NCBI GenBank assembly: GCA_002005505.1
Contig: MVGU01000871.1
Coordinates: forward strand, 287,501 to 303,704
Length of the DNA stretch: 16,204 bases
DNA from: Botryococcus braunii
Lineage: Eukaryota > Chlorophyta > Trebouxiophyceae
Reading direction: 5' to 3'
The translations under genes were made by a program, and so were the position numbers. Below, piece by piece: positions 7,394 through 7,918 of the stretch (the first letter of the stretch is position 1; each line of letters opens with the position of its first letter). The notes beneath the pieces were generated by a model. The model searched no databases. It saw nothing but the letters and a program-made list of their open reading frames with translations, and was not told the DNA's origin.

Positions 7394-7918
7394 ATGGCGC
7401 GAACTCGACAAACCGGACGTATGAGCACGGGCGGAAATAGACCTCCTCCACCCGCACCTCCTCCTCCAACATATAACGAGCGAAGAAAGGCAGGAGGAGA
7501 GACAGGCCCACGAACGATAGATGAGCGTGCATTCCTAGTGAAGGACTTCGTCCACGAAGCACACGGACGAGGAGCACTCACCCCACCTCAGTGGTTCCGA
7601 GAGCGTTTCCCGATATACCCAGCTTATAAATTCACGGTTTGGGAAATCTCTTTCATCAACGGAGAGCCAGGATATCTGACACGAGCAATTTTTGAGAGGT
7701 GCTTACAGCAAACAGGAGGTCCATCGCACGAAGCTTATTGGACAGAGAAAGCGGCCTACGCAGCGATTGAGCTAGCTTTGAGCAGCCTGGGAGACGACTT
7801 CATTGATCATCTAATTCTCTACGGCAGAGGACAGTTTGAAGTGGACGAGTGGGAAACAGAGGACGACAGTGAGGACGAGGACGGAGACTCCAGACTGTCA
7901 GAAAGGAGTGAAGACTGA
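7394..7918 (+). CDS. ORF0: histone H3-tail-like accessory protein of element 1 (174 aa)
   Basis: An extra protein encoded between the primer site and gag, absent from standard copia maps. Residues 1-14, MARTRQTGRMSTGG, align without gaps to the H3 N-terminus [13 protein letters not shown] after the initiator Met. The differences are R at the K4 position, G at A7 and M at K9. Residues 17-25 are proline-rich and run into PPTYNE, a PPxY motif. A mixed alpha/beta-looking middle follows (ERAFLVKDF, PPQWFRERFP, about residues 44-138). The end is a strongly acidic tail (DEWETEDDSEDEDGDS). The start at 7394 is supported by element 2, whose ORF0 also begins with an H3-like tail. It ends 13 nt before the gag ATG in another frame. 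I infer a chromatin-directed role. No known family was recognised for the middle domain. Confidence 0.75.
   Translation: MARTRQTGRMSTGGNRPPPPAPPPPTYNERRKAGGETGPRTIDERAFLVKDFVHEAHGRGALTPPQWFRERFPIYPAYKFTVWEISFINGEPGYLTRAIFERCLQQTGGPSHEAYWTEKAAYAAIELALSSLGDDFIDHLILYGRGQFEVDEWETEDDSEDEDGDSRLSERSED

Follow-up and report, generated by a model that had tools for sequence, protein, structure and literature searches.

Upstream of gag, two copia-type elements of Botryococcus braunii carry an extra reading frame (ORF0) that opens with a segment resembling the tail of histone H3. Both elements lie within a single window, by which we mean the whole 16,204-nucleotide stretch analysed here (287501-303704 of its contig, within a 176-Mb assembly). 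We propose, at a probability of roughly 0.45, that ORF0 is a copia accessory protein bearing a selected mimic of the H3K9 region, which would serve as a trap in element 1 and as a substrate or decoy in element 2. Judged from the sequences, the likeness to H3 in both clades, the selection that maintains the peptide and the difference between the clades at position 9 are evident, and these, together with short forms of element 2 ORF0 that retain the tail though most of the domain is lost, are what favour this reading.

Each element combines a gag-like region with an integrase, as judged from the open reading frames and from Pfam (Table 1). In element 1, the frame that follows ORF0 matches the Pfam families rve, gag_pre-integrs and SH3_retrovirus, with a gag match under the Pfam cut-off, and rve lies upstream of RVT_2 (E 9.4e-64), which is the domain order of Ty1/copia elements. 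Element 2 presents an integrase without RVT_2 in view, as the window ends there, and no 3' LTR of element 1 was found within the window. Two copies of a leader segment stand in tandem before ORF0 in element 1 (6827-6977 and 7156-7306) and in element 2 (12615-12756 and 12936-13077); the repeats measure 142-151 bases, lie approximately 320-330 bases apart and are 99 to 100% identical. The motif GGTTATGGGCCCA recurs at 13102-13114, upstream of element 2 ORF0, and we take it to be the complement of the anticodon arm of initiator tRNA-Met, which would make it a candidate primer-binding site of the half-tRNA type.

Table 1. Features of the two copia-type elements, in positions of the window.
Feature	Position	Strand	Remarks
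Element 1 candidate primer-binding site, GGTTATGGGCCCA	7328..7340	+	Directly after CA end
Element 1 ORF0, 174 aa	7394..7918	+	Tail, Pro-rich linker, helical domain (about residues 27-145), acidic end
Element 1 H3-like tail, MARTRQTGRMSTGG	7394..7435	+	Arg at K4 position, Met at K9 position
Element 1 gag, weak zinc knuckle, protease-like region and integrase frame	7932..10820	+	Copia order
Element 1 reverse transcriptase frame (RVT_2)	10948..12489	+	Divided from preceding frame by a stop
Element 2 ORF0, 65 aa, shortened	13170..13367	+	Tail kept; most of domain missing relative to the 166-aa L099
Element 2 H3-like tail	13170..13214	+	Lys retained at K4 and K9 positions
Element 2 gag frame	13419..15029	+	Pfam
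Element 2 integrase frame	14993..16204	+	Pfam; open at window end

Four H3 genes were found in the host genome (the canonical L061, L062 and L063 and the variant L064), and against the host H3 head the element 1 tail, M-ARTRQTGRMSTGG, matches at 10 of 13 residues, ungapped and from residue 1, just as the first-pass annotation of this DNA had claimed. That annotation had also described a short tail mimic and no captured histone, and this too has held up: ORF0 has no Pfam histone match and a domain-only profile finds no histone, by which a captured histone gene with its fold is ruled out. It was right about the H3 likeness of element 1, but it overlooked the Met at position 9 and the Arg at position 4, the closer tail of element 2, and that relatives from metagenomes are H3-like only weakly (P0011, P0012) or not at all (P0008). 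The random N-termini in other family members that it had named as evidence to the contrary were absent from the host, where readable tails are recognisable with some residues changed. The element 2 tail reproduces H3 residues 2-9 exactly, shifted by two residues. In the element 1 clade the tail profile extends the match to the Pro at H3 16, and the element 2 clade, on our reading of the alignment, has an invariant Pro at the same H3 place if its lead is counted as an insertion. The element 1 clade has retained [AG]-R-T at its very N-terminus. In both clades a small residue comes second, and this favours removal of the Met.

By the following comparisons, an H3-like segment exists beyond chance in a protein that is not a histone. 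With the first 20 residues shuffled 1,000,000 times at constant composition, no shuffle scored as well against H3 1-20 as the element 1 tail, 13 of 1,000,000 reached the score of the element 2 tail, and across 12 Botryococcus tails the figure ranged from 0 to 1068 per million. The metagenome relatives gave 1552 (P0012), 5979 (P0011) and 137,035 (P0008) per million; P0012 and P0011 are weakly H3-like and P0008 is not, which counts against our main reading. Searching 177,635 distinct PDB sequences with the first 20 residues of element 1 (phmmer) returned 129 matches with E-values of up to 10, and each of the 60 that were listed was either an H3 variant or Cse4, the centromeric H3 (best E 0.0053). 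Profiles of 7 element 2-clade tails and of 11 element 1-clade tails matched 121 and 73 PDB sequences, respectively, at E<=1, and the 60 matches listed for each comprised only H3 variants, H3 peptides, Cse4 or H3/CENP-A chimeras. All 7 matches of a whole-ORF0 profile (15 rows) at E<=10 were H3 or Cse4, and the profile minus the tail (13 rows) gave 2 PDB matches at E<=10 and no histone. The best single E-values of the tail searches are modest (0.005 to 0.03) because the segment is short, and it is the uniformity of the match lists that bears the weight. Taken together, the shuffles and the uniformly H3-type lists rule out chance likeness.

Beyond the tail, element 1 ORF0 matches no Pfam family at E<=1. 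A structure model from a 17-row alignment is helical with a pLDDT of 72.8, falling to 48 over the first ten residues, a low confidence that is as expected of a tail predicted to be disordered. A fold search with this model returned no convincing match.

Substitution patterns indicate that the H3-like segment is held by selection on the peptide, strongly in the element 2 clade and moderately in the element 1 clade. We calculated dN/dS as Nei-Gojobori totals over pairs with Jukes-Cantor correction; because the pairs share history, the values are descriptive. The element 2 set consisted of 7 rows including L099, with L101 (lacking a start ATG) and L107 (stopped early) left out of eight loci. The element 1 set took in 14 of 20 divergent loci, plus five copies (the window copy, L006, L008, L012 and L029) to represent L001-L030. 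Loci left out were L079 (frame interrupted, tail with Met9 present), L084 (tail unreadable), L081, L089 and L094 (early stops) and L093 (start ATG changed); a tail can nonetheless be seen in L081, L089, L093 and L094. In the element 2 clade (7 rows), dN/dS was 0.014 for KQTARKTT, 0.136 for the linker, 0.172 for the domain and 0.270 for the acidic end. In the element 1 clade (19 rows), it was 0.129 for residues 2-10, 0.210 for residues 2-12, 0.594 for the linker, 0.193 for the domain and 0.231 for the acidic end; that is, the tail is constrained roughly as much as the domain while the adjoining linker drifts. The comparison of tail with remainder that the first-pass annotation had suggested thus came out positive, strongly in the element 2 clade and mildly in the element 1 clade.

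A window test along ORF0 (11 element 1 rows, 6 element 2 rows) bears on the same point. For element 2, 6 of 151 windows, KQTARKTT among them, reached the conservation of KQTARKTT, and it alone was also that diverged at synonymous codons. For element 1, as many as 32 of 150 windows were as conserved as the tail, which places it only in the upper fifth and counts against the main reading. Between the element 2 copy of our analysed stretch and L101, 7 of the 8 codons of RTKQTARK differ with 0 residues changed. Together, the dN/dS values of the tail and the window test indicate that the peptide and not the DNA is held, strongly so in element 2; constraint on the DNA instead is ruled out by the divergence at synonymous sites.

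ORF0 is widespread in the host genome. An RTKQTARK pattern that also allows Ser at Arg codons (at least one place, C98:122843, has Ser first) occurs at 297 genomic places and its reversed control at 0. Among the approximately 100 places listed, three are canonical H3 genes by their coordinates, and the remainder are codon strings of known ORF0 copies or lie inside ORF0 matches. Each of four protein searches of the genome yielded at least 150 candidates, from which we conclude that ORF0 copies of both kinds are numerous. Of 112 places with the pattern M-[AG]-R-T-R-Q-x-G-R, 109 continue with ATG (Met9), the exceptions noted being one Ile (L083) and one that is apparently spurious (fourth codon Ser). 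This near-constancy is among our grounds for favouring the main reading, although Met has a single codon and Met9 consequently lacks a synonymous control, which weighs on the other side. KQTAR-x-TT occurs at 360 places, and all of the approximately 100 listed have a Lys codon at x. Position 9 is therefore Met in the element 1 clade (Ile in L083) and Lys in the element 2 clade, and it is Arg in P0011 and P0012, the metagenome relatives having Arg or no clear Lys there; position 4 is Arg in the aligned element 1 rows, yet Lys in P0006. Met replaces the target Lys within an H3-like context in the element 1 clade, whereas the element 2 places listed keep Lys.

Several observations on individual copies count against the main reading. 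L103 reads QTAGK and L087 reads HTGQM, and L101 (C66:339230-339721), one of eight equal-scoring ORF0 matches that begin at residue 2, has an intact H3-like tail with AGG instead of the start ATG. Upstream of ORF0, four ATGs lie within about 90 bases in element 1 and three within about 110 bases in element 2, so that the tail AUG is a putative start. In some ORF0 copies the frame is open farther upstream, and in L086 and its relatives an ATG lies in frame eight codons ahead of the tail.

We envisage that ORF0 would display its H3-tail mimic on a flexible N-terminus ahead of a small helical domain, and that the tail would engage factors of the host that recognise the Lys9 region of H3. With Arg4 and Met9, the element 1 tail could not be methylated at these positions and may capture a SUVH/SET3p-type H3K9 methyltransferase as a pseudo-substrate, and the trapping of this enzyme would weaken the silencing of element 1. 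The element 2 tail, with its KQTARKTT, would be a methylatable substrate and a reader ligand, in other words a decoy. The Met of an H3K9M peptide is described as sitting in the lysine pocket of G9a, and H3K9M as trapping Clr4 and dominantly blocking H3K9 methylation (PMC5030085); SET3p of Chlamydomonas, a homologue of SUVH, produces H3K9me1 and keeps repeated transgenes silent, with H3K4me1 likewise linked to silencing (PMC8566409); and EZHIP is presented as a non-histone protein that uses a K-to-M H3-like motif (PMC12713659). Given these precedents, the Met9/Arg4 tail is a plausible trap for a silencing enzyme. Searches of the host genome singled out no H3K9 methyltransferase, which counts against the main reading: there were 11 SET matches, and a search for Pre-SET was empty, with control queries equally silent. 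That the element 1 clade encodes its own H3K9M-type inhibitor while its sister elements keep a methylatable decoy or tether is a tentative proposal, which we regard as somewhat unlikely. If true, the two clades would be countering a single silencing system in two different ways, and the trick of H3K9M and EZHIP would have been reached independently by mobile elements, providing a natural K-to-M methyltransferase trap outside mammals. An ORF0 that works as proposed would be a sequence-independent tool of LTR elements for counter-silencing or targeting, and the Lys9 and Met9 forms within one genome are natural peptides whose function can be directly compared.

The mimicry and the selection data would also fit if host H3-tail readers bound ORF0 and brought the integration complex to chosen chromatin, which is the logic of chromodomain elements or of Ty5 with reader and ligand swapped. 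The Ty5 integrase is indeed reported to be directed via a segment that resembles Esc1, a ligand of Sir4 (PMC4700185), and chromodomains are abundant in the host genome (150 scored of 1236 candidates), many of them in long frames. ORF0, however, is a separate frame outside the integrase, and the Met9 of element 1 could not bear the mark that H3K9 readers need, and we consider targeting or tethering unlikely. It is doubtful, too, that the tail is a basic signal for nuclear localisation or nucleic-acid binding with an incidental likeness to H3. All tails are basic, and the element 2 leads MAKKR and MAKRRR resemble such signals, as do the metagenome tails MARRRQTARR and MVRSTVRRSRTQTAQRR, but basic residues are few in the element 1 tails, and the neutral Q, T, A, T and T of KQTARKTT are invariant in 7 element 2-clade tails where the basic lead is variable. 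The rarity with which composition-keeping shuffles match the 12 Botryococcus tails (given above) speaks against a basic signal as well.

The free A1-R2 end of H3 is what K4 readers use, and the N-terminal [AG]-R-T of element 1, with the small second residue of both clades, would suit a ligand that serves WDR5-, PHD- or LSD1-type readers of the free H3 end (A1-R2-T3-K4), not the K9 system. In element 2, however, the motif is shifted by two or three residues, which puts the A1-R2 end out of place, and it is nonetheless element 2 that holds KQTARKTT most strongly. That element 2 keeps the surroundings of Lys9 and not the free A1-R2 end points instead to K9 writers and readers, and we consider a free-end ligand quite improbable. 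Every H3 residue from 1 to 13 occurs at its own position in at least one of the two Botryococcus clades, with no single copy having all of them, as might be expected if the tail were a functionless, neutral remnant of a captured H3 5' end. A held peptide with diverged synonymous sites is unexpected for a relic, however, and this explanation appears scarcely credible. The same coverage of residues across clades fits descent from a closer H3 copy and is no proof of it.

Proteins of parasites with H3-like segments are known from viruses, as exemplified by influenza NS1. The NS1 motif is short and C-terminal, whereas the likeness in ORF0 belongs to a retrotransposon and spans 11-16 N-terminal residues; the targeting segment of Ty5 has about six. 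The H3K9M histone shares with element 1 the Met at the K9 position, and its crystallised peptide agrees with the element 1 tail at 11 of its first 13 residues, but H3K9M is a mutated histone, whereas the element 1 tail belongs to a protein of the element and also has Arg4 and Gly7 (PMC5030085). EZHIP shares a natural K-to-M H3-like motif in a non-histone protein, yet as described it is a K27 mimic acting on PRC2, encoded by a mammalian host gene and limited to a short VRMR core (PMC12713659). Ty5 is likewise a copia-type element that uses likeness to a host chromatin-protein ligand (Esc1), but its segment lies inside the integrase and mimics a ligand of Sir4 instead of H3 (PMC4700185). Chromodomain LTR elements also use recognition of the H3 tail, but they carry the reader where the ORF0 elements carry the ligand (PMC3350952). 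In plants, VANC and geminivirus TrAP are likewise parasite-encoded proteins directed against host silencing, TrAP by inhibiting the H3K9 methyltransferase SUVH4/KYP; VANCs are sequence-specific, and the available portions of these papers make no mention of histone-tail mimicry for either protein (PMC10398659, PMC5735166, PMC4606454). Across titles and abstract openings, in a literature with subscription journals mostly uncovered, no mobile element with an H3-tail mimic came to light.

In a tree of 25 ORF0 proteins (without P0013, P0002, P0004, P0005, P0007 and P0009), element 1 (14 rows) separates from element 2 and four metagenome proteins (11 rows) with support 100/100. The metagenome relatives branch inside the element 2 side and are less H3-like than the Botryococcus tails; convergence within one host, or loss in the hosts of the metagenome relatives, is possible. 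A CENH3-like variant H3 was considered as the source of the tail, as L064 shares GGNRP with the window copy, but this link was given no weight, since most of L001-L030 have GGS or GRS at that place. L064 (C224), which has a canonical start followed by an unusual tail, and L075 (C256) are divergent H3-type host genes and candidates for centromeric or variant H3. Many of the host chromodomain matches belong to frames of about 1198 or 1382 aa and may represent chromodomain LTR elements that exist beside the H3-mimic elements.

Among the 150 matches listed for element 2 ORF0, 39 are of 65 aa, 107 of 80 or 90, one of 68 and three of 166, although the query for this count was the 65-aa form itself, which favours short copies. 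Both short forms that were read keep the tail without most of the domain, which would fit a tail that does the work; the same picture would arise if a single master bearing a passenger deletion had been amplified. As seen at 13355-13372 and in L099, L108 and L109, the two short forms have gaps that start at different places and end at the same base, before AGTAAGATCTTGC. By our reading, GT-AG ends of an intron are absent from both gaps, and the common end looks like RNA processing or template switching, not like two random deletions. In the 90-aa form (L108:50 onward), the ORF0 stop overlaps the gag start as ATGA, an arrangement that could reflect translational coupling.
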